NCBI RefSeq assembly: GCF_921293095.1
Contig: NC_060252.1
Location: forward strand, 8,246,001 to 8,310,000
From: Ischnura elegans
Lineage: Eukaryota > Arthropoda > Insecta > Odonata > Coenagrionidae
DNA length: 64,000 nt
Direction of reading: 5' to 3'
The notes under the pieces were generated by a model. It saw only the letters and a program-made list of their open reading frames with translations. It was not told the origin of the DNA and did not search any database. The translations under genes and the position numbers were made by a program. Below, piece after piece: positions 1-18,290 of this stretch; the first letter of the stretch is position 1, and each line of letters opens with the position of its first letter.

Positions 1-861
1 GTATGAGGTTCATAACTTACACTTTTTTTATGTGTATGTTCGTATCAGAAGTGATATCCCACACAGCACACCAACATTTTTAGAACATCCTGTGACTGTC
101 CGCCATGTGGCCTACGGATATCTGTAGGCCATCTGCATTTATGCCAAAGGATGTCTGCATGTCAGTAAAAAAAGGTTGCCTACGGACATTCTGAAAGTGT
201 CCGCTCCGGACACCTTCAGGACACTCAAAGGACACATTTAGCTTAGGACTGAATTTTGTTCGTTACCAATAAATACTAGGTCCAGACAAGAATTTAAATA
301 AATAAGGCATCAATTTCATGTACAATATTTATTAGACTTCTTTGGTACTACAAGAATCTAACACAAGAAATTAAATATCACGTATTTTTCTTCTCCCCCA
401 CTGCAAGCGCTTCTTGGCGTGCCTAATCTAATTTCTCAGTCACCTCTACATATTTTCCAGGGGCAGGCATGCTCTCCTGCACTGCTCCTGTAAAGATGAA
501 TGATATAATTATGGCATTGTTGCAGGGCATCGTCTCTTGTAGATAAAGGGCTGATAACATTTAAGACAAGGAAGCTACAGCCTCATTAATCTTGGGCTTA
601 ACATACTTAAAGTCTTAAAATCATAAAGTTAAAATTGTGAAACTTGTCCACAGTAGGCACTAGTAATATCGGCAATTTTCTCTTCTAACCCACATCTAAT
701 TTGGTGAAACAAATATGTACTCTTATTCTCTTTCAAAGAAAAATTATTTAAAAGAGGACTGGCAGAAGCCATAGTACGTAACTATCTTCAATAGTTTTCC
801 GATGAATGTCCACTTTCACAACATTCACTTACAAAAAAACAAATCCACATCCACCATAGAT

Positions 862-1023
862 CTAAAAGTCACTTCTACTGCTGTCTTCTATATGATAGAT
901 AGTAATGGCACCCTCCTCCAATCTGGGCACCTTCAATTCTACATTAATTGTCTTCTCCGTCTTCTCGTCTAAGGCCACAGACTATTTTCTGATATCACAA
1001 GGCGTGAAGTGAAGCTGACACAC
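862..1023 (-). pseudogene. THAP domain, second exon (decayed)
   Basis: The - strand reads VCQLHFTPCDI, which supplies the missing C and H ligands of the THAP fold directly after the KNIK end of the first exon. It continues with ALDEKTEKTINVELKVPRL, the stretch that usually follows THAP domains of this class in insects. One in-frame TAG lies between the two parts, and the acceptor in front of VCQLHF is not a clean AG. The reading frame is therefore probably dead, although the domain is recognisable. A possible last exon ending GKYVEVTEKLD lies near 440-505. Confidence 0.5.
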
Positions 1024-1458
1024 CGAAACTTAATAAATACGAAAATACCCTTAAAATTACTTGGTCATTTCATTTACAATTTATGGCATTTCTGCATGAG
1101 ACTAGGCTAATAAACATAGGAGGTAATTGTATACCTCAATAATTTTATATTTAAAACTATAGCATAAGATAATTTTAAATCACGAAAGCCGATGCATAAC
1201 ACATCAAAGGGCAAGCAAGCTAAGAAAGAATATTCGATTCTATAAACTTAGCTGCTAATTCCTAGTAACTCCTTCAACCACACATTAACCAAATGACAAA
1301 ACACAAAAAAGACAACTAAAATGCAAGACTTTTCAAATGAATTGCTGCTACAATATTTTAAATCACCACTTTTAGTCCTGGAGTCGTTCATCAACATCCC
1401 GAAGCCACTTCTAACTAGAAATTACATCCGAATAATTTCAGGGAGAAAGGGTACATAC

Positions 1459-1611
1459 CTTAATGTTTTTCGTAGGGGTGAAATTGTCTCTTCTTATCGC
1501 CCAAATACAGTTCTTCTTCAACTCACGATCTATAGGAAAGCTAAAAACTTGAACTTTGGGTCTAGTCCAGGAGTTTCCTTCGCATCCCGGCACCACACAT
1601 GTGAAAGGCAT
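1459..1611 (-). CDS. THAP zinc-finger domain, first exon
   Basis: Fifty-one codons from an ATG at 1609-1611 read MPFTCVVPGC, then FSFP, W and the basic stretch IRRDNF. This is the N-terminal half of a C2CH THAP DNA-binding domain (CxxxxC, conserved FxFP and W). It ends KNIK followed by a GTATGT donor. THAP domains bind DNA in P-element transposases and in many host regulators. The second half is at 862-1023. The gene sits inside the element at 56-2174, so it is either its own DNA-binding protein or captured cargo. Confidence 0.65.
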
Positions 1612-2178
1612 TTTTAACAAAAATACCTCTCAAACAAGTTTTTGAAGCCCACCGAGTGAAATTAAAGAATAACGGAAACTTCACTATTCACAGAAACTCT
1701 AATTTTCACCAACCTAACCACAAAAATCCCTGAAATGTGGTGAGATGTAACGTTAACAACGTAATCTCCAACCTCAGCTGTCGCTTGCGATCCTTCCGTG
1801 GGCCTTCTTTCTTGGTGGGTATGGCACCATTGGAGAAAGAAAATAGTCCCACACTGGACACGAATCTTAGTATCCAGATATGAACTGGATACTAATGTGT
1901 CATACGTTAATTCACGAGTTTTTAGGAAATTTGGTCATATATGTATGATACAATTTTATCGCTGCATATGAATTTGCCAGTGTACTGTTCAAAACCTTTG
2001 TATAAACGGAACACTAGTTGGACGTCTGCTGGACGTCCAAGATAGGACAGTGTGTGGACGGATGACAAGGAAGGCAGCCGGTGGTCCTCTGGCTGTCCTG
2101 AAAATCTGTGGACAGTGAGAGGACGCACTGGACGTGCAGCGGACGTCCTTTGGCAACAATGTGCTGTGTGAGATGTGA

Positions 2179-2439
2179 CAGTGGCGTAGCCAGGGGGGAG
2201 GTCCGGGAGGTCAGGCCCCCCAAAAAAATTAATTAGGTATTTTACTCTGGAAAATATAACATAATATTGAAAAATAGTGAATTTACAAAATATTTCATTG
2301 AAAGATGAAGTTTTTTCGATTATGAAAAGTGTTTAAAATTAGTTTTAAACCCACTACTTAGTACCCTGTTTTTCAAAAATTTTCCCCACGTTTTGGACCC
2401 CCCACCTCTCCCCTAAAAAAATTCCTTGCTACCCCACTG
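2179..2439. mobile_element. hAT-like MITE, 261 bp
   Basis: The left end reads CAGTGGCGTAGCCAGGGGG and the right end, reverse-complemented, CAGTGGGGTAGCAAGG. These are the imperfect inverted ends typical of short hAT-derived MITEs. It has no coding capacity. It abuts the right end of the THAP-bearing element. The 8-bp target duplication is eroded (AGATGTGA versus ATATGTTG). Confidence 0.6.
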
Positions 2440-3600
2440 ATATGTTGGAACAGTAATTTGAAACCATAATGTGTCACTACCTCCAAGTTTTCGATTTAGT
2501 AATAGATCGTAGTAATTTAGTAATAATTTTTAATCCTAGTTAACCCAGAGGAGTATTAAAATGCTGTACAAACCAAAGGAATAAACTGAATTGTAATGTT
2601 TTTTTATCATCTTTAGGTAATAGTTTGTTATTTCTATGGAATGTGTTGGGTACTTACTCATGCTGTGGGATGTATTCAGATGTATGTGAAGACCTTTCCT
2701 CAGAGGTAGAGCTGCATAACTCATGTCTGTTGATATTTTTTGTTTATTTTATAGGCATTACTGTGTGATATTACTGAAAAAATGTGTTCTAGATATAGTG
2801 TAATTAACTATAGGATAACCTATTAAAGTAAATTTGAAGCCAGATTTATGTTGGAATCCAGTGTACCAATTATATGATTAGTTTATGCTGCATATAGAGT
2901 GGTGAGTCGTGAATGCCACTTTTTCTGGTTCAACGATGTAAGGCTAACTTATTATCTCTCTGTGTTCCGTGATAGCAAAAGATTGAAGCTGCTCTTGCGA
3001 GCAGTTTATTAAGTTATTTTTATTAGCTAGCATATTTTACTAGCGTCATCATCTTTCTACCTCTTCAATCATGAGGCCATGTAGAACTTAGTGAATAAAA
3101 ATTAAATGTTTGCAGATCTACGTACTTGCACAAAAAGGACTGACTACAGGTGGAATGAATGGTGAAAGTTGAATTATTTAGAAAAAATTTGAGGGGAATG
3201 CAAATTTTTATCAAGAAATATTTACTAAATGAAAAAATTTCTATTTCATACACTATGTTTGTAAGATATCCAGTGAGGGGGTTACAAATGAAAAATGTAA
3301 TACTCGTCCATTCCGCTCCTTTGCCGGCATGCAAATGCTGCCTTGTTGCACACCCAACATTTATTATATTGTGCCATTTCTTGGTTGTGCGAATAAATAT
3401 GTTAATATACTGCACTACCCTACCCTTTAAATTCTTAGCTATTAAGTGTGACTTGAAAAAAATAAGAAAAAAAATTTAGTAAACGCTCAAACAAGAAATA
3501 ATTCTAGTCTTTCAAATGATAAGTTTTAAGTGAACTCTAATTCTTAACAAATGTCTTCATGAGGGAGATATGGAAAATTAACCTGTTTCACTGTCATATT
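2440..3600. other. AT-rich stretch without recognised features
   Basis: I see no domain-bearing frame, no inverted ends and no tandem repeat. Two overlapping open frames on opposite strands at 3065-3479 look like chance frames in low-complexity DNA. Confidence 0.4.
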
Positions 3601-4470
3601 AAAATTAAAGAGGGTGGGTGCATCTTGATTCATGAAATGTCACATAGAGTCACCTAGAAAGGGTGCTCATGAGCTGAGCCTCTTGTCTTCATTGGGAGTG
3701 GGCTTTCTTTCCTGGAAATGGAGCTCTCACCAAGTGGAGGAGTTTGCACATTTGGCACCAAGACATTTGGTTACTGGCCTTGTGGTTCGTCATTGGGAGG
3801 TTGGGATGGCAAGTGTGTTGGTTTCGCAAGGGATGTGTTGCGCATGACATGCTTCCCTTTAGGACTCTTCACAACTGCATTCCCATATATTAACAGCACC
3901 TTTAAAGAACTTGGCGAAAAATTGGTGGAAAACTTGTTTCCCTGCTCCTGCCTCACAAGTACCCCATCCATCCCCTGATTCAAGTGTTCTTTTTGATGCT
4001 CTCCTTGCTCCATCAGCATAGGCTTTCATCTTTGCCGTCTGTTGCTCCTTGGTTTTCACTCTCCCAGGGCGTCCCCTTCATCAGCTGGAGCAGGGAGCCC
4101 GTCGGTCAATACCCTACTAGCATGTTTGATGATATGCATTTTGCCTTGCTGCCGCTGCAATAGTACTGTTCCTTCAGCACATCGATGCATCACAGCATCG
4201 GTGACGATAAAAGTAGGATTTCCCAAACTAAAGTACAAATGCTAACACGGGATAGTTTGTGATAAAGTTCTTTTTCTTGTCCACGGCTCCCTGATTTTCC
4301 TGCTCCACTCAAAATCTGTCTCACCTTTCAGCGTAACCCTCAATGGATGGGTGATTGCTGAGTACGTAGGAATGAACTTTGCACTGTACCCAATCAGTAC
4401 TAACAGACTCACTAATTTTGTTTTTGCAGTCGGAGCCTTTATCCTGCGACAGCTTCAATACGACTGTCCA
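3600..4470 (-). mobile_element. Ty3/gypsy LTR retrotransposon fossil, RT end to RNase H part
   Basis: The - strand carries recognisable pol pieces of a Ty3/gypsy element: the post-RT stretch FIPTYSAITHPLR near 4330-4400 and an RNase H stretch with VLLQRQQGKMH and ASRVLTD near 4060-4240. It is broken in many places and looks old. No LTR was found, so the lower edge is approximate. The 7.7-kb element at 4471-12207 was inserted into it: the upstream part of the same pol gene resumes at 12208 in the same orientation. Confidence 0.7.
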
Positions 4471-5113
4471 GTAGGGCGGATCGCAAAAATCGATTTTTTT
4501 CAAATCCATCTGGCCCAATGAAAAAAAGTTGTGGGACCGATCAAAAATAAGGCCTGAAAATTTTGAGACCTGTACGTGAACCCCTGACCCTCGCTCAAAT
4601 GCAATTTAGGGGGGCAAGGTCAAAATTCGAAAAATATAATATTTTATGGTCATTCCCTATAGATTCTGCCGAGTTACTGCCCTTCTAGGCTTCTAGGGCA
4701 AAAATTTCGTGCATTTTGACGTATCTGCCACCGTTTAGCCACAAAATACCTAATTTGAGTCCGCGTCCGCGAAGAAAATATTCCAACGCCCACGCAGCGT
4801 CGCGGATACCAAAGCCGCAGGCCGATCCCTTCCCCTCTACGCTCGCTTCTCCCCCTCCCACGCCTCTAACACAGCAAAATTCATCCCGCGCATGCTGCTA
4901 GGAGGTCGTTTATCTTTCATAATATAAATCAGAAGATGGTAGAAGGTAAAAAACGATGCGTAGTGAGACGACTTATCCCTTCTTTGGCGCCTCGTCGGCG
5001 TTAAACAAATCGATGTTACCAACTTTTAGAGAAGTGATGAAATAATTTTAGACCTGCGCGCGCAGGAAAGGAGACTACGGTCTTGAAGACGCCTCTCGAG
5101 TGGCTATGAAGGT
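4471..5113 (+). repeat. Left terminal inverted repeat of the 7.7-kb element
   Basis: It matches the reverse complement of 11571-12207 with only scattered differences, including shared landmarks such as GGCGCCTCGTCGGCG and GACGCCTCTCGAGTGGC. Open frames inside it are mirrored in the other copy and are not genes. Confidence 0.85.
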
Positions 5114-6622
5114 TTGGGAACTTACGTTATGCACTTCTATTCCGGTATTGTCCGACAGCTGTGACTAAATGGATGAATAAGGGTGAAGGCCGCCGGCGTA
5201 CCCTCCCCGCTCCCCTCTCGAACGCCCCAGATGCAACAAAATTCACACCAAGTGCGTCTTTCTTCATAAGTCTTACTAATATTTGATTTATCAGCATCGT
5301 CCAGTGAGGAGCAATCACGAAGGAATTATTCAATTACCTGCTTTCCAGTCTGTATTTCTTATGTTATTGTCATTCCTTGTCTTTTGCTGCTGTCAACAAA
5401 GTTTTGGTAAATTCTTTCGCGAATCTCTCGTCCGTATGTATAATAAAAGGAATATTGAAATTTAAATTTGAACTTTCATCAATAGATTTTTAAATTCCAC
5501 AGCGCTATGCTCGGATATAGCCGAAGGAACCGGAGTCTCTCTCCAATATATCATCAGCGGGTAGTACTTTACGTCGATATTAAAATCCAGCAATTAAAAA
5601 ATATCTCGGATTAGTCGCCAAACGCATCCTTGCGGAAACGCATATTGGGTCCCTAGATTACCCTCCCAACGTTTATGTCGCAAATCCAAGTCAACATAGT
5701 GCAATTAGCAAATAGACCACTGTAAGGGATGAAATACGATTTGATGCTTTCCCGGCGAATGATGTGGGTAAACTCTTTTTGGAGTTCAACAAAATTTATC
5801 TCTTAGGATGAGCCCCCAGTCGGAGCTTGAAATGTTGGCCATTACGGAAAAATTAACCCGGTGGGAATCCCGAGAAGAGTCTACCCACACTGCAAGGGAT
5901 GTTGGAATTATGCTTATAGCAAAGGGATGATGCCTCCTTTTTGGGCGGTATTCGCTTGGTACCATCATAATCAAATCCTTTTTAATTCTGTGTACCTAAT
6001 TTTCACTCGGAAATGAATCGATAATCGCAGATTTTATAACTTTTGCTAATCCTCCGACGGGGGAGGCAAACCTCCAAAAGTGGGACCCTGTTTCTTCAAC
6101 TAACACCACACATTCCCCTATAAACTTGTATTGATAAGTCCTCTTCCCTTTTTTCATCAGACAAGAGTATAGTCTTTCATTCCAATAAAATGAGACCCTT
6201 TGATGACACCTCTCTTTTCTTATTCACAGTAATTAGCATCTTTTTCTGGCTACGTAAGTAATTCCGGTACACTAGCTTTGATATATCTTACGAAGTTATG
6301 ACTTTTGCGTCAGCTAAAGTTGCGGGAACGATCATTGCTGTTGCTTGGTTCTTGGATTTACCTCTATCACAGTTGGCAGACGCATTTTCCCCGAAGAATT
6401 TCCAATTTGAGGTTATAGTCCTTAATGTTTATTTCATGAGGAAAGTAGAGATACAAATCGGCTAATTTCTCGCCATTTTAATTTTCTTCGGATGAATTGA
6501 TGAAGAAAACTTTTGATACTATTTTCCCGTGCAAGAATTGACGATGATGACTCAACGCTCGCCTACGATTCCCTTTTTTCCCAAGTTGTCGAGTTTCTTT
6601 AGGGTTCAATCCAGCAGCCATC
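5114..6622. other. Interior of the 7.7-kb element, left part
   Basis: This is unique-looking sequence between the left inverted repeat and the nested GGATATCC element. No domain was recognised on either strand. A short - strand frame near 6478-6620 is cut by the nested element. Confidence 0.4.
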
Positions 6623-6639
6623 ATCCCACACAGCACAAA

Positions 6640-7210
6640 TATATCCATTGGATATCCAATGGATATCCATGTTGGTTGCCATGACATCCATTGGATATCC
6701 ATAGATTTATCCAATGGATATCCAGTGGATATCCAAATGTCCTCTATCTGGATACGCCATGGATATACATTAGACATCCATTGGATATCCAGTGGATATC
6801 CATTGAGAATGCTCTGGATTTGTAGTGGATTTTCAGTGGATATCCAGTGGATATCCAAATGTTCTCTATCTGGATAGGCCATGGATATACATTAGACATC
6901 CATTGGATATCCAGTGGATATCCATTGAGAATGCTCTGGATTTGTAGTGGATTTTCAGTGGATATCCAGTGGATATCCAAATGTTCTCTATCTGGATAGG
7001 CCATAGACATACATTAGACATCCATTGGATATCCAGTGGATATCCATTGAGAATGCTCTGGATTTGTAGTGGATTTTCAGTGGATATCCAGTGGATATCC
7101 AAATGTTCTCTATCTGGATAGGCCATAGACATATATTAGACATCTAGTGGATACTCATCGAGGATCCTGTGGACATTCATTTGATAACCAGTGGATATCC
7201 ACGATACTTA
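6640..7210. repeat. GGATATCC minisatellite with 122-bp period
   Basis: The phrase CCAAATGTYCTCTATCTGG recurs at 6733, 6855, 6977 and 7099, exactly 122 bp apart. Each unit holds several GGATATCC palindromes separated by AGT or ATT. The array is the left subterminal region of the 4.7-kb element and creates long spurious open frames rich in DIHWISNGYP on both strands. Confidence 0.95.
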
Positions 7211-8029
7211 GGTATTCAATGGATATTCATTACAAATCGTCTTGAATTCTAAGGGATATACAGAGTCTAGGGAAAATCTTGGAGATCCCCAAAAATTGGC
7301 ATGCTACCAACAGGATATTGAGTGGATCCACCAAATATCCACAACTACACTGTAAAATAGAAATTATACTTGAGTTAATGCCTTAAAATTTTCTTTGTTT
7401 GGCTACATAAATTTAATGCATTCTTTTGCAATGAATAAGTAAACACACCAATGATTGAGAACCTTGTATTAATTTAACAGACTAAGATTTTGGATATCAC
7501 CAGAGGTATAAATGATGGATGAAAGAGCAATAACATTCTGAAATGAAATTTATTTAACTTATGACTTTTACAATACAATGCTATTTTGTTTTAATTAGAA
7601 CATATATGAATTTCATTATTTAAACTCAATTATTATTAACATTATTATTATTATGTGCACCAGGTTCCTGGATATTCCTGAAATAAATAATAGAGCTTGT
7701 AAGTAACTAAGGTTAGTGCTCTAACAATTTAAAATTATTCCTTTACAGTAAGCTCAGAAGTATAAATCCAATGTCACGTAGCTGAAAATTGTGTTTTTGT
7801 TTCAATGAAAAGGAACTCCATAGTAGGAACAATAATGCAAAAGTCTAAATAATTTAAAGATCATAGGCCAATTTAAAGACCTAGGCCACCATCATAATTA
7901 ATGACAGACTAAAATAGGAATAATGATATGCTCTCTGTATAGATATTTCTGTGAGTTGTAATATTAAATAAATAAGCCAAATATTAATAATGAACATAGT
8001 AATTTCAGGACTCTACCAGAATTGTTTAC
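7211..8029. other. Element interior, probable 3' end of the DUF4806 gene
   Basis: This is AT-rich sequence inside the 4.7-kb element, after the last recognised DUF4806 exon on the - strand. An AATAAA-type signal in the - strand near 7550 could end the transcript. No further exon was identified. Confidence 0.35.
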
Positions 8030-8138
8030 CTGGCTTCATTGATGGCCCTCGCCTTTCCGTGTCGCAACCAGTTTTTCACAGAATCAATTATTACTTTGTC
8101 CGTAATTTTTTCATTAGGGAAATTACCTCTAACACCGC
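8030..8138 (-). CDS. DUF4806 domain, second visible exon
   Basis: The acceptor TATAG precedes the exon and the donor AG/GTAAAC follows it. It reads GVRGNFPNEKITDK, then SVKNWLRHGKAR, the C-terminal half of DUF4806 (TDK followed by a WL helix and basic end). It is in phase with the exon at 8369-8528. DUF4806 is a domain of unknown function seen in insect and cnidarian proteins; I infer no activity. Confidence 0.6.
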
Positions 8139-8368
8139 CTATAGCAAAGAGATAAAAGTAAATAATCATAGCATCCAAAAAAAGGGGCAAGTACATGATA
8201 GTTAATCTTTCAAAAAGACAAGGTCCACTATGTGCACTTAGCACAAATTATAATAATAGTTGCTAAGCTTATTAATTTAGATGCAATCTTTTTCTAGTAC
8301 TGCAAATAAAAGTTGGTCACATTTTGACTGGTAAAACTATTAAATGATGATCAAGAAGACATAATTAC

Positions 8369-8528
8369 ATAAAATCACTTCAGCGAGGTTAAGTTTTGAA
8401 AATATTTCTTTTTTCTTTCCCCCTGACCAGCTATAGTTGGCTGCAGCCTCATTGGTTAGAATTTTCTTAAGAATCGCCTTCACCACAGCATCAATGGAAT
8501 TTCCTCCAATGAGAGTAAAGTAATGAGC
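8369..8528 (-). CDS. DUF4806 domain, first visible exon
   Basis: The acceptor TTCTAG is followed by AHYFTLIGGNSIDAVVKAIL, then a run through NYSWSGGKKKEIF to LNLAEVIL, the core of DUF4806 (LIGG, a helical leader, a W-x-G centre and an EVI end). A donor T/GTAATT gives phase 1, which joins cleanly to the exon at 8030-8138. No stop interrupts either exon. Upstream exons were not found, so the N-terminal architecture is unknown. It lies inside the 4.7-kb transposon. Confidence 0.65.
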
Positions 8529-10428
8529 CTAGAAAAGAAGAGTAGTTGGCTTTATCTAGGTAATGAGCCTAAAGATGAAGTAATGTCAAGGCAACCAATT
8601 GTACATAAGAAGATAGCATTTATGGCTTAATTAATTCTAAGATGTGGCAACCAAATGATAAAATGCAAAATATCGTTTTCATTTTTGAGTGATTTCTGAA
8701 AAGTTTAACCTTTATGGTTAAATAAAATGACATTGAAGGTAAACTAATTTCCTAACAGGCAAGAACCGATTAGTTTAAAATGAGTCAGGAGAAAGTAAGC
8801 CTTTTATCCTTTTTAGGTGGCAACTATGAAGAGGCTTCAAAATTGAATATAACTGGTACCTACTATTTCCAGAAACAATAAAATAAATGATAAGTTATAG
8901 TATACCAGGACCAGCCACATTGAAAAATTTATGGAGCCACCTGCAGTACACAAATTATGAGAAAGTTCCGCAGAGAAAAATCATTCGCTTTGCCAAGAAT
9001 TTGAACCCAGATATGTACCTACATCAATTTCCAGTTGAGTGCCGGTAAAGCTATGGAGAGGTGTTTCCCGTATATTGAAGTTGTTGGACTCTACTACTAT
9101 ATACTATTGGACTCTGTATTTACTATATTTTGGGCTACATATAAATAGTCCAGAAATTCCCATGGAGGGGAAAGATGCCTTGGTTGATGCGTTCCCTGAC
9201 TATGCATTAATTTACAGGTAGCTTAGCTGGCTAAAGCACTCAACCAGAAATCTGAAGATCCGGGTTGTTCATGGCATAACTTACTTATTGTTTTGATCGA
9301 TCGATCCATTAACACATTTTCACAATGAGATGCCCGTATTTAAGATTTAACGTACCTATTCCCATCTCTTACATTTGTTTTGTTGTTTTTTTGCTCTTAA
9401 ATTAGGGCATCGAAAACGTTATTAGAATATAAAAAATTTCGTAGCATAAAAAGCGTGGTTAGGGCCGAAAAAACGTAATTGAAACTGCATGAAAACGTTC
9501 TGATGCCACATGAAAAGGCATTTAAAGGCCTACGTCTTTAAACACGTGTTTACGGTCGAGAAAAAAATGTTTTCGGGCGGACTTAATTACTTACTGTTTC
9601 AGTACTTTTTTTAGCTGTTTTTGAAACGCTTTCATGAGATTTTTGTGCTCTCTGGTATGTTAACGAATATGGTCAGCTATTAATAGTACGCGTACACTTA
9701 CCTTTAAAAACTTCCGTCGAAATCTGGCGGAGGAGTCCAGCAAATGCGTCACACAGAATGAACTAGTGACAGCAGTTTAAAATTCACTCGCGAAAAACGA
9801 AGTGATGAATATAGTTTTGTCGCACTAGCCTCAATAACTGACACTCGCAAAGACACTAGTTTCGAAAAACGTGGTCACTCGGATGTCAAGTCAAAAGTAA
9901 AACCAGTAAAACTGCGAAAAAACGTTTCCCAGCTTTCCCCCTTTCATGACGGTCGCGGGTGTACGACGTCTTTGCTTCGGGACCCAATACTGCGGGGTTA
10001 GGCTTTACCCTCGGAGTCCGGGAGCAACTACCCTGACCCTTCGCCTTTATTACCCCTCTTAGGTCATGCAATTGTTTATCCAGTCAGTTTTCTAAATAAA
10101 TATTTGTTCTTTTCTCAATAAATATAAACTAAGAATTGAATTCTTTGTCTTTTGAGCAGCGTTTACAATTTTTAAACGAAATTTTACGATAAATATTAAC
10201 TTATATTTCGAGTTCTTTATAAAAATCAACATGGAAATTGATGCTGCATTAAATGCGTTAATATTGACCTTAGAACTTCGTTTAAAATTTGACAAGGCTC
10301 AGAAGAAAACGAGGAATTCAATTCAAAGTCTGCAATTTACGTGCAAGAAACAATTGTCCATGTGCCAAACACATATAAGCAACCCATGAGTTGACCTCGA
10401 ACCGATGACACTGGTAGGGTCGTAAATC
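8529..10428. other. Element interior without recognised exons
   Basis: This lies upstream of the DUF4806 exons in - strand terms and should hold any 5' exons. I recognise none. The only other item is a short tRNA-like stretch near 9218-9280. Confidence 0.35.
9218..9280 (+). repeat. Possible tRNA-derived SINE head
   Basis: TAGCTTAGCTGG fits the RNA polymerase III A box, and GGGTTGTTCATGG about 35 bases on is a weak B box. No intact tRNA cloverleaf is evident. Confidence 0.35.
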
Positions 10429-10534
10429 CGGAGAGGAGGGAGCACATGTGCTCCGTCCTCTCCGGGGAGAAGGGAGCACATGTGCTCCCTCCTCTCCAAG
10501 GGAGGAGGGAGCACATGTGCTCCCCCCTCCCGTG
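10429..10534. repeat. Three-copy palindromic tandem repeat
   Basis: The 16-bp palindrome GGAGCACATGTGCTCC occurs at 10439, 10473 and 10508, each copy flanked by GGAGGAGG/CCTCCTCTCC so that units of 34-35 bp repeat. It lies inside the 4.7-kb transposon. Confidence 0.85.
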
Positions 10535-10586
10535 TGATTATCGGCGAGACACTTTTTAACGAATGTCCTCCAAAAATGCTCCGTAC

Positions 10587-10918
10587 CAATGGCGCAGCGA
10601 GGGGGAGGTTTTGGGGGGATAAACTCCCCCCCCCCCCCCCCCGCGCAGAACTCAGAGAAATTTATAAGTTTAATCCATTTTAATTAATTGGATTGATATT
10701 ACTAATAGAATAGGTAGCGTAAGGATTAATAAAATATCCCTCCTAAAGCTGTAAAACTCACAATTTTGAGCCATTTATTTTAAAATTCTGCAATTTATTA
10801 ATCTCGCACCTACCGCTTATCCTGGCGTGTATTCCATATCCCCACACACCCCGGTACATATTAGTTGCACCTAAACCCTCCCCCCCACCCAGCCTTAATT
10901 CCTATAGCTGCGCCCCTG
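10587..10918. mobile_element. hAT-type MITE, 332 bp
   Basis: The ends CAATGGCGCAGCGAGGGGG and, reverse-complemented, CAGGGGCGCAGCTATAGG form inverted ends. Perfect 8-bp direct repeats CTCCGTAC (10579-10586 and 10919-10926) flank them, the hAT hallmark. A poly-C run lies inside. There is no coding capacity. It is nested in the 4.7-kb element and is the youngest layer of the stack. Confidence 0.85.
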
Positions 10919-11570
10919 CTCCGTACCAGTAGAAAGAAGAGTCACTTGGGGATCAGTACAGCAGTCATGCTAAGACGAAAACTCCGCCATCTCGAACGGG
11001 TTAAGTAGTTATTCTTATTATTTTGTAATATCATTTAGTAACCCCTGTCATAGAAAACATGTATAGATTGATTTTTACGTTCATACTGTAACTACTCATT
11101 ATAAATAATTATTATCCATGGGTGTCCTCTGATGAATATCCAATGGATATCCACTCTTGGATATCCATTGGATATTCATTGTTGTACTCTGATGGATATC
11201 CAGCCATGGATATCCATTGTATATACATAGGATATATCCCGTGGCGATGGATGTGTGGTGGACATTATGGATATCCAATGGATATACAGTGGATATTTTG
11301 TGCTGTGTGGGATCTTTCTTTTCGTCAGATTGTCTCTCAAAATACTTCTCATTGGGGGAACCTTATGCTCCTCCATGCACTTACACGCAAAAATATAGCA
11401 TAATTTAAAATGTTCCTTTAAAATTGTTTGAGTCTTATACTTCAATAAAACCCTACTTTTGGCCTATTAGTAGTATTAGATTTTCCGTAAGTCTTAGTAC
11501 TTCCTGTGGTACCGCAAAATCTATTTAGTCACATTCATAATGGAAGAGAAGCGCGTCACCATAGTTCGCA

Positions 11571-12207
11571 CACCTTCATAGCCACTCGAGAGGCGTCTTC
11601 ATAGACCGTAGTCTCCATTCCTGCGTGCGCAGGTCTAAAAGTATTTCATCACTTCTCTAAAAGTTGGTAACATCGATTTGTTTAACGCCGACGAGGCGCC
11701 AAATAAGGGACAAGTCGTCTCACTACGCATCGTTTTTTACCGTCTACCATCTTCTGATTTATATTATGAAAGATAAACGACCTCCTAGCAGCATGCGCGG
11801 GATGAATTTTGCTGTGTTAGAGGCGTGGGAGGGGGAGAAGCGAGCGTGGAGGGGAAGGGATCGGCCTGCGGCTCTGGTATCCGCGACGCTGCGTGGGCGT
11901 TGGAATATTTTCTTCGCGGACGCGGACTCAAATTAGGTATTTTGTGGCTAAACGGTGGCAGATACGTCAAAATGCACGAAATTTTCGCCCTAAAAGGGCA
12001 GTAACTCGGCAGAATCTATAGGGAATGACCATAAAATATTATATTTTTCGAATTTTGACCTTGCCCCCCTAAATTGCATTTGAGCGAGGGTCAGGGGTTC
12101 ACGTACAGGTCTCAAAATTTTCAGGCCTTATTTTTGATCGGTCCCACAACTTTTTTTCATTGGGCCAGATGGATTTGAAAAAAATCGATTTTTGCGATCC
12201 GCCCTAC
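11571..12207 (-). repeat. Right terminal inverted repeat of the 7.7-kb element
   Basis: It is the reverse complement of 4471-5113, followed by the TGTCCA target duplication at 12208-12213. Confidence 0.85.
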
Positions 12208-13400
12208 TGTCCAGTGGTTGAACCCCATCCTTCTAAAATAAATGTCCCCTGAATTCAACCTTAGGTTCGGATATGGTACATTTACACCAGTTCTCAGTAA
12301 CCCCATTCTACTCCAAAACTTTAGGAGTTCATAAAGTCACCGATCATGTTCTCTTTGGTTTCCACCCCATACTGGGAAATTTTTGAAGTATTTAATTACT
12401 CCCTCGCAGGGTGAAATCACTCTCTTAATCTCTCTCTTTGGAAACCCTCACATTCAGCCCAACTCATCCCAAATAGCAGCGGCATAAACCTCATCCAACC
12501 CTGGTGGGTGATGAGGGTCAGCATCCTTTGACATTGTTTGTCAATTTCTATTTGGTTAAACTTATCGCGTTCATGTCTAAAACTGAAAACACAGTAGCTC
12601 CCAGCAATTTGGCTAATAACTGATCAATTCTCGGCAATGGATGAACCTCCTGCTCAATAGCATTGTTCACTTGCCTTACGTCCAAACACTCCCTGAGTTC
12701 ACCTGATTTTTCGATCACTCACCAGAGGAGATACCCACTCTGTTGGCTTGTCAATATGTACTTTCGATTACACCTCAGTCCTTCATCTCTCTCAGTTTGT
12801 TCTTCAACAATGGCTGAACATGTATCGGCACTTTTCTTGAGTTCTGCTTAACTGGTTTCACTTCAGGTTTCGCAGTCAGTCGAAGTTGAAAACCCTTTAA
12901 TTTTCTCAGCCCCTTGAAAACTAATGGGAAATCGTCTTTAATTCTATCCATCAGCGGGCTCACTTTCCACTGCTGTGCCTCCCCTCTCTTTACCATGTGT
13001 AATGAATTTCTTAGCAAAAGAATGCCCAGTTCTCACTATGTTTTCCTGCCTTATAGCGGTACTCTGCTACAATTTATCACATGAAATGTTGTATTTATTG
13101 CCTTACCCAGAATGCCAAGCTCAGCATCAAACCTACCCAATAATGCAAAGTGCTGTTTCAGCTCACTCTCTCTTTTCAGATTTCAGTTTTGCAAAGGAAA
13201 TCATTTTTGTGTATTGGACAATTGTGATGATAAATGAATTCTTATCGTCAATTTTCATTTTATAAACAGGGCCCTCTAATAGGAGACTCAAAAAATTGAC
13301 TTGTTCACCATTTCTTCCTGTCAAATTGTGATAAGAATTTAAAAAGGAAGAGACCTGCATTTTCTGTTTCTCGATGTCACCTACTTCTTTAAGCTATTTT
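12208..13400 (-). mobile_element. Ty3/gypsy LTR retrotransposon fossil, reverse transcriptase part
   Basis: The - strand carries the start of a gypsy-type reverse transcriptase: FPLVFKGLRKLKGFQ near 12890-12930, then a PTEWVSP-type stretch near 12740 and an FSVLDMN-like stretch near 12590. It is broken many times and old. It continues across the inserted 7.7-kb element into 3600-4470. The upper edge is uncertain, and no LTR, gag or protease was identified. Confidence 0.7.
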
Positions 13401-18039: not shown

Positions 18040-18290
18040 ATCCCACGTAGCACAAAACATCTAAAAATGTCTGTAAAATATCTAATACGTCTTTTGCTAA
18101 TTTTTAGAAAACATCTTGTAATAACTTCTAGACATCTTTTAGCCTTTCCCTGCCAGCGCCTATGGAAGGGAAATGTTTTCCATGCTATTATAGTAGCATA
18201 AGAAAATTTTAAACCTCTCTGCATGGAGTTCTTTTTTGGGGAGAAGTTGCCCTGGTATTCATATCCCTCCAATATGGGACCCGACATGTG
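18040..18290 (+). mobile_element. One end of a third ATCCCAC-GCACA-tipped element
   Basis: ATCCCACGTAGCACAAAACATCT resembles the tips at 56 and 6623. It is followed by repeated AAACATCT, AGACATCT and AAATGTCT motifs rather than GGATATCC or GGACGTCC. No matching right tip was found, so this is a fragment of uncertain length and a third subfamily of the same group. Confidence 0.45.

Follow-up and report, generated by a model that had tools for sequence, protein, structure and literature searches.

Elements W1 and W2 and their content

The window analysed here, a 64,000-nucleotide stretch of the Ischnura elegans genome (contig NC_060252.1, positions 8,246,001 to 8,310,000), contains two elements, W1 and W2, that end in the same tip and carry different exons and different subterminal repeats. 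With a probability of about 0.7 for the explanation as a whole, W1 and W2 are internally deleted, worn-down non-autonomous copies of animal TRC-type DNA transposons (transposons related to CACTA, DeMarco 2006; CACTA superfamily), in which a transposase with a fixed tip would be assisted by a TnpA-like, array-binding companion protein containing the domain DUF4806. The features of the window are as follows.

56-57, left copy of the W1 target duplication, AT (right copy 2173-2174), placed by the rule seen in nested copies and inverted pairs
58-2172, W1, non-autonomous, GGACGTCC lineage, companion gene on the - strand
58-240, W1 left tip (58-70) and subterminal array of GGAC/GTCC words
384-487, - strand, last companion exon of W1, a frame-broken remnant with an AG acceptor before it
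1459-1611, - strand, first companion exon of W1, start of a THAP domain, with an ATG at 1611 and a GT donor directly after the exon
2010-2172, W1 right subterminal array, with GGACGTCC at 2031 and 2141
2160-2172, W1 right tip, reading CTCACACAGCACA inwards
6623-6624, left copy of the W2 target duplication, AT (right copy 11312-11313), placed by the empty-site search
6625-11311, W2, non-autonomous, GGATATCC lineage, companion exons on the - strand
6640-7200, W2 left subterminal array, 18 exact GGATATCC, partly amplified in a 122-bp tandem repeat at 6715-7153
8029-8142, - strand, last companion exon of W2, with a conserved W/L..A..R stretch
8370-8528, - strand, companion exon of W2, C-terminal half of DUF4806, alone below the Pfam cut-off
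11130-11298, W2 right subterminal array, 5 exact GGATATCC
18042-18054, + strand, single variant tip CCCACGTAGCACA with two mismatches, followed by AAACATCT-like words

Exact copies of ATCYCACACAGCACA occur at 56-70 (+), 2160-2174 (-), 6623-6637 (+) and 11299-11313 (-), and a scan of the window allowing up to 3 mismatches gave 10 matches, against a shuffle mean of 2.7 and a largest shuffle value of 7. The original prediction, made from the window alone, that the two elements have the same outer tips is thereby borne out, with the correction that its tip coordinates included two outer AT bases that belong to the target, the actual tip being CCCACACAGCACA. The related tip that it placed at 18040 is the variant at 18042, which has no partner within the window.

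The predicted THAP gene is present in W1, where the exon region 1438-1629 matches Pfam THAP above the cut-off (E = 2.4e-5). The remnant at 384-487, about 1 kb further on, is a relative of the exon that follows DUF4806 in related elements and has open relatives in copies of lineage A. The predicted DUF4806 gene of W2 is present only as a half domain (E = 7.8e-4 alone; 0.0017 and 19.1 bits when joined to the next exon); W2 retains the last two companion exons, and a first companion exon could not be recognised there. The transposases of the complete relatives F, G and H described below have no match in W1 or W2, in line with the earlier remark that no transposase is seen in either.

Tips and target duplication across the genome

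The 1.72-Gb genome was searched with the reversed pattern as control. The 15-mer ATCYCACACAGCACA was found at 58 forward and 55 reverse positions (control 0 and 0), and CCCACACAGCACA preceded by two A or T bases (WW) occurs 330 and 328 times (control 1 and 5). The proposed search for inverted pairs bore fruit: half of the 100 ATCYCACACAGCACA matches listed form 25 inverted pairs (23 within 6 kb and 2 at 27-32 kb; by eye), the other 50 being unpaired. Comparison of 22 close pairs (20 fetched and the 2 of the window) revealed three motif lineages inside the common tip, GGACGTCC in 10/22, GGATATCC in 3/22 and ATAATATT in 9/22, confirming that fixed tips enclose different short-motif arrays; the remaining close pair, L036, matches lineage A. 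Twelve unpaired places were also fetched. At seven of these, either a second tip or the array of one of the known lineages is present. The other five (L039, L040, L045, L046 and L047) lack both a convincing partner and a clear array, indicating that some tip matches are chance or decayed.

Across lineages the tip consensus is CCCANNNAGCACA, with CCCACACAGCACA in A, B, C, E and G, CCCAGATAGCACA in F, and CCCAGCCAGCACA and CCCAACTAGCACA in H; CTC replaces CCC at the right end of W1 and at one end of L025. Element E (21 kb), nested in a lineage A copy, is flanked by TT, and element F (8.6 kb), which lies in a stretch interrupting another A copy, is flanked by AA. On contigs C1-C2, matching 2-bp flanks were found in 19/19 inverted pairs (TA, AA/TT or AT; by eye, letters listed), where chance agreement would be about 1 in 4 per pair because the pattern forces A or T. 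The suggested empty-site alignment fixed the duplication of W2: its flanks, joined over one AT, match at least 269/271 nt in 40/40 scored places (1116 candidates), two of them at 100%. W2 is therefore inserted into a high-copy repeat, duplicating AT.

W2 and its relative L014 are 95-98% identical across their two longest aligned blocks, and copies in other lineages reach 99% identity over the longest aligned block, suggesting that the group was active fairly recently.

Complete relatives encode a transposase and a companion

Three relatives, F, G and H, are complete.

F, 8.6 kb, tips CCCAGATAGCACA, duplication AA, transposase then companion
G (L049), 7.0 kb, both tips CCCACACAGCACA, duplication TT, transposase then companion
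H (L050), 6.8 kb, tips CCCAGCCAGCACA / CCCAACTAGCACA, duplication TA, transposase then companion

In each, a single-exon transposase gene precedes a companion gene of several exons that lies on the same strand and has DUF4806 at its end, providing the shared transposase class that had been expected in full-length copies. The F transposase has an open frame of 716 codons (684 from the first M) and 862 candidate places in the genome, of which 65 were scored, three being identical and 48/65 having no stop in the match; the H and G queries gave 839 and 817 candidates, with 66 scored each. The three transposases are 43-47% identical to one another within differing arrays, and D192, D270, C289-x2-C292, H487-x3-H491 and E511 are invariant in 3/3.

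The first companion exon of F, G and H encodes an unnamed module, here called PENW. In G and H it is followed by a second exon, by a third encoding a coiled-coil-like stretch (by eye) and the N-terminal half of DUF4806, by an exon with the C-terminal half of DUF4806 and by a final exon; GT-AG boundaries are readable at matching places, one acceptor of H being inferred. The joined companions of F and G match DUF4806 (PF16064) above the Pfam cut-off (E = 1.5e-7 and 1.4e-8), and that of H falls just below it (E = 5.3e-5; 23.9 vs 25 bits). A genome-wide Pfam search for DUF4806 gave no match, nor any in control genomes, and is thus uninformative. PDB searches with the companion and the transposase returned chance matches only, and by sequence no BEN chain came up in the PDB.

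The gene order extends beyond these three elements. Among 64 transposase places listed of about 840 candidates, a query with the H-type PENW exon found this exon 81-472 bp downstream on the same strand in 25 and at 0.8-11.7 kb in 12 further places; within 15 kb, none of the 64 had it 5' of the transposase or on the other strand. In the opposite direction, 38/79 PENW places have a listed transposase upstream. The description of THAP and DUF4806 as domain-protein cargo is not supported, as both appear to be parts of one kind of companion gene, which in its PENW form lies beside the transposase.

Subterminal arrays differ between lineages

Array words were counted in the two ends (about 265 bp each) of each element, giving 11 end sets. 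Since the words had been picked from these very sequences, the counts describe the arrays and do not test them. The words are dense in the ends and nearly private to a lineage: GGACG occurs 8 times in W1, 12 in A, 3 in E and nowhere else; GGATAT 37 and 23 times in B, 11 in E and at most 4 elsewhere; AATATTATG 5 and 8 times in C and nowhere else; TTGTA 28 times in F and at most 3 elsewhere; and TACATNATGTA 6 times in G and nowhere else. ATATCCC is shared by E (7) and H (2).

Interrupted palindromes (4+N0-3+4) were compared with 300 dinucleotide-preserving shuffles in 10 sequences. The count of the commonest palindromic word was reached by 0 to 2 of the 300 shuffles in 8/10 sequences, namely by 0/300 in A, both B copies, C_L016, E, F and G and by 2/300 in H, and by 8/300 in C_L013 and 21/300 in W1. 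For the total number of palindromes, a clear enrichment is confined to four lineages: B, with 0/300 in each of two copies, G with 0/300, F with 1/300 and H with 2/300.

The expectation that each motif pairs with one protein class stands in part. The THAP exon accompanies 19/40 GGACGTCC-type right ends, as detailed below; the PENW lineages F, G and H, with the same first-exon module, have three different arrays, so that first-exon class alone does not set the motif. Because PENW-type companions serve at least three arrays, the choice of array would lie in finer residues or in DUF4806.

The THAP lineage

At 18/40 GGACGTCC-type right ends the THAP exon is 538-580 bp away from the outer edge, at one more the distance is 2869 bp, and none of the 40 has it on the wrong strand within 5 kb. 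L025, a relative of W1, carries a broken DUF4806 exon with two stops (E = 8e-6 in a small database), and the last companion exon of W1, L025 and L051 resembles the last exon of other lineages. Given the last-exon remnant of W1, the DUF4806 exon of L025 and the THAP exon near GGACGTCC right ends, this lineage probably has a THAP-DUF4806 companion, and it would be moved by the same transposase class as F, G and H. No complete copy with a THAP companion was found among the scored places. One pair of tips on C2 (147362721 and 147369640) encloses a THAP exon.

Among the listed matches, near-identical copies of the THAP exon lie about 950 bp from a tip reading TT outside (C1, C2), often without a second tip nearby; by eye, their equal flanks suggest spread as part of a larger repeat.

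Lineage A copies (e.g. L027, about 1029-3669) contain two last companion exons that differ from each other, the first close to the left end and the second at about 1.8 kb, and their inner 2.7 kb is 92% like part of E, so that lineage A may be a fusion or a nested copy. L051, selected as a candidate for a complete THAP copy, carries a pogo-like insert (by eye).

Relation to known transposons

TRC elements are defined by terminal inverted repeats that begin with CCC, a 2-bp target site duplication and Transposase_21-type motifs, namely a first D followed by W-P-I/L/V, two D residues about 80 residues apart and CXXC, and those of eumetazoans have the motif D-x-L/M-H-x3-L-G (PMC1636069). The tips of the present elements begin with CCC, except at the two CTC ends of W1 and L025, and are flanked by a 2-bp duplication with a single exception (L038). 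The transposases have DG...WPIL, 78 residues from D192 to D270 and CPKC, CSKC or CGKC (by eye), and read IDYMHLICLG, LDYMHLLCLG and YEYMHLVCLG at the eumetazoan motif, with E for D in H; where motif I has F/Y, the three proteins have S or A. The succession D, D, C(2)C, H(3-4)H, E, which is the pattern of the CMC clade (CACTA-Mirage-Chapaev; PMC12730594), is also present, with the C and H pairs between the second D and the last E. DUF4218 matches 3/3 transposases at E<=1 and DUF1258 matches 1/3, both below the cut-off for the member shown.

W1 and W2 are accordingly placed, as part of the explanation given above, in the known class of animal TRC/CACTA elements. SmTRC1 of Schistosoma, its Tribolium and Aedes relatives and Hydra Spongebob/EnSpm-4N1 have similar CCC tips (Tribolium CCCTAGTAGCACC..., Aedes CCCAGTCAAC, Hydra CCCAGCCAACATTGAC), the Tribolium tip sharing AGCAC in register with those of Ischnura, and they resemble the present elements in the 2-bp duplication, D-x-L/M-H-x3-L-G, CXXC and two tandem proteins with splicing (PMC1636069; PMC4298943). 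They differ in that the other protein portions of SmTRC1 are described as 'not detectably conserved' (PMC1636069), whereas the second protein here is a DUF4806 protein with PENW or THAP. Lineage-specific subterminal arrays are likewise not reported for TRC in the main text of PMC1636069, where 'subterminal' and 'palindrom' are absent, and an internal repeat of one motif is mentioned for the SmTRC1 terminal inverted repeat.

Plant En/Spm (CACTA) elements, with TnpA and TnpD, are similar in their short fixed tips, diverging subterminal repeats and separate transposase and DNA-binding protein, and the soybean CACTA element differs in having CACTA tips and a 3-bp duplication (PMC2613891). P elements also use a THAP domain that binds internal sites beside the tips (PMC7776569), but it lies inside the transposase and the duplication is 8 bp; here DUF4806-type exons accompany the THAP domain in its gene, and the copies that carry it showed no transposase. 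Membership in the P superfamily is contradicted by the 2-bp duplication and by the CMC-type transposase of F, G and H, a P transposase not having been searched for separately. Harbinger/ISL2EU, P, Kolobok and Helitron were rejected on the 2-bp duplication, the inverted tips and the CMC-pattern transposase. The likeness to nematode Mirage (DUF1258) consists of the weak DUF1258 match in 1/3 transposases; DUF1258 clusters with Transposase_21 (PMC3985635).

A proposed TnpA-like companion and the alternatives

The DDE transposase of complete copies would act at the near-invariant tip CCCANNNAGCACA and make the 2-bp duplication. The spliced companion, with its first-exon module (PENW or THAP), coiled-coil-like stretch (by eye) and C-terminal DUF4806, would be the functional counterpart of plant TnpA, which is not known to be a DUF4806 or THAP protein; it would bind the subterminal array of its own lineage, bring the two ends together and hand them to the transposase. 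Tip and transposase would evolve slowly as array and companion diversify, so that non-autonomous copies would answer to helpers of their own lineage. Comparable arrangements have been described or proposed. In En/Spm, where neither protein is dispensable, TNPA recognises the subterminal repeats (PMC2613891). For plant CACTA elements it has been proposed that the divergence of subterminal repeats is matched by a diversity of TNPA-like proteins (PMC2613891), and in P elements the THAP domain tethers the transposase to internal sites (PMC7776569). A companion dimer acting on palindromic arrays would be the simplest reading, since DUF4806 is reported as a BEN subtype (PMC11075544, citing Pan et al. 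2023) and homodimers of BEN-solo proteins, of which Insensitive is one, bind TCCAATTGGA-like palindromes (PMC6911014); palindromic BEN targets also appear in crystal work (PMC11472053).

Several observations weigh against this explanation. The arrays are not fully private, as GTATTAC is common to F (11) and G (5), E shares GGATAT (11) and GGACG (3) with other lineages, and GGACAT occurs 1-4 times in 9/11 end sets. Total palindromes are not enriched in C_L013 (112/300) and C_L016 (36/300) and are marginal in W1 (19/300), A (13/300) and E (18/300), and the short copy B_L019 is denser in palindromes inside than at its ends. On the protein side, Pfam Transposase_21 (PF02992) has no match at E<=1 in 3/3 transposases, the DUF4806 match of W2 is below the cut-off both alone and joined, that of L025 was not seen with a longer search word, and 9 ATAATATT elements match no companion or transposase query. 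The H query also found no PENW exon at 27/64 listed transposase places, F and G being among these although direct reading shows the exon in both. The A copy in L038 has unequal flanks, namely AT and TA.

A fairly unlikely alternative is that the companion represses the element or acts on its chromatin, in which case the arrays would be regulatory sites for it and not sites of synapsis. BEN-solo proteins do act as repressors or insulators (PMC6911014), maize TNPA is also a suppressor (PMC2613891), and companion exons are kept in many non-autonomous copies; yet the arrays lie at both ends, inside both tips, even in ATAATATT copies without a recognised gene, a placement expected of cis sites needed for transposition. 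It is unlikely that the THAP lineage depends on another, unseen transposase and has only the tip and array design in common with the DUF4806 lineages. This possibility, and with it a weakness of the preferred explanation, arises because 0/150 scored THAP places (1434 candidates) lie within 60 kb of the 81 scored transposase places (about 820-860 candidates), and because L051, a complete W1-like copy, has no match to the F, G and H transposases. The same tip and duplication nevertheless occur in the THAP lineage, the last companion exon of W1, L025 and L051 is like those of other lineages, and only about a tenth of the THAP and transposase candidates was scored.

It is very unlikely that the exons for THAP and DUF4806 derive from host genes, acquired independently as cargo fragments, although W1 and W2 taken alone, with one domain each and no transposase, would allow it: the same gene order stands beside the transposase in F, G and H, the PENW exon lies within 472 bp in 25/64 listed transposase places, and the THAP exon is at a constant 538-580 bp from the outer edge in 18/40 GGACGTCC right ends. 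Independent cargo was dropped on these three grounds. It is extremely unlikely that the tips are one short sequence that recurs by chance or is shared by recombination among unrelated elements, as might be supposed from the 5/12 fetched unpaired places without partner and array. The 658 matches to the tip with its WW flank, against 6 in the control, disfavour this idea, as do the matching 2-bp flanks in 19/19 inverted pairs and the occurrence of 43-47% identical transposases within differing arrays. 

Wider significance

The original prediction knew of no description of such a set, which was wrong in part, as CCC tips with a 2-bp duplication mark TRC elements (PMC1636069) and diverging repeats with TNPA-like proteins have been proposed in plants (PMC2613891). 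The element class is already known. What the companion is, that its first exon is exchanged, and that a single genome holds so many array lineages were not found in the open literature searched (Repbase and subscription journals lay outside the search), and no passage found there links DUF4806 to a transposase.

Plant CACTA elements have long been known to combine fixed tips with helper proteins that diverge, and the helper of animal TRC elements was left undescribed, as 'not detectably conserved' (PMC1636069). Tentatively, and with somewhat less than an even chance, animal CACTA-type transposons may use a modular TnpA counterpart of BEN type (DUF4806), with an exchanged first-exon domain and co-evolving with palindromic arrays, in which case DUF4806 expansions, such as that in Hydra, would be largely transposon helper genes. 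In a domain table, DUF4806 counts of 69 and 54 in the first two columns, presumed to be Hydra, against 0-6 in the remaining columns (PMC7642931), fit this idea and do not test it. If the companion is a DUF4806 helper, a widespread domain of unknown function gains a testable role, and the expansion of DUF4806 genes in some animals would be explained. The presence of many lineages in one genome makes helper and binding array directly comparable.

Other observations

Element E (L029-L031), of TRC type, owes its very large size to nested insertions, one of them Gypsy-like (by eye). Its tips still match and its TT duplication is retained; the F, G and H queries found no transposase match in it.

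W2 lies in a repeat with long inverted arms (window 4460-5148 and 11537-12218; 394+230+65 nt, 83-98% complementary), of which there are about 1116 candidate copies in the genome. A foreign stretch is common to W2 (window 10092-10683) and element F (1496-1985), and its copy in W2 holds a 34-bp tandem unit at 10427-10529.

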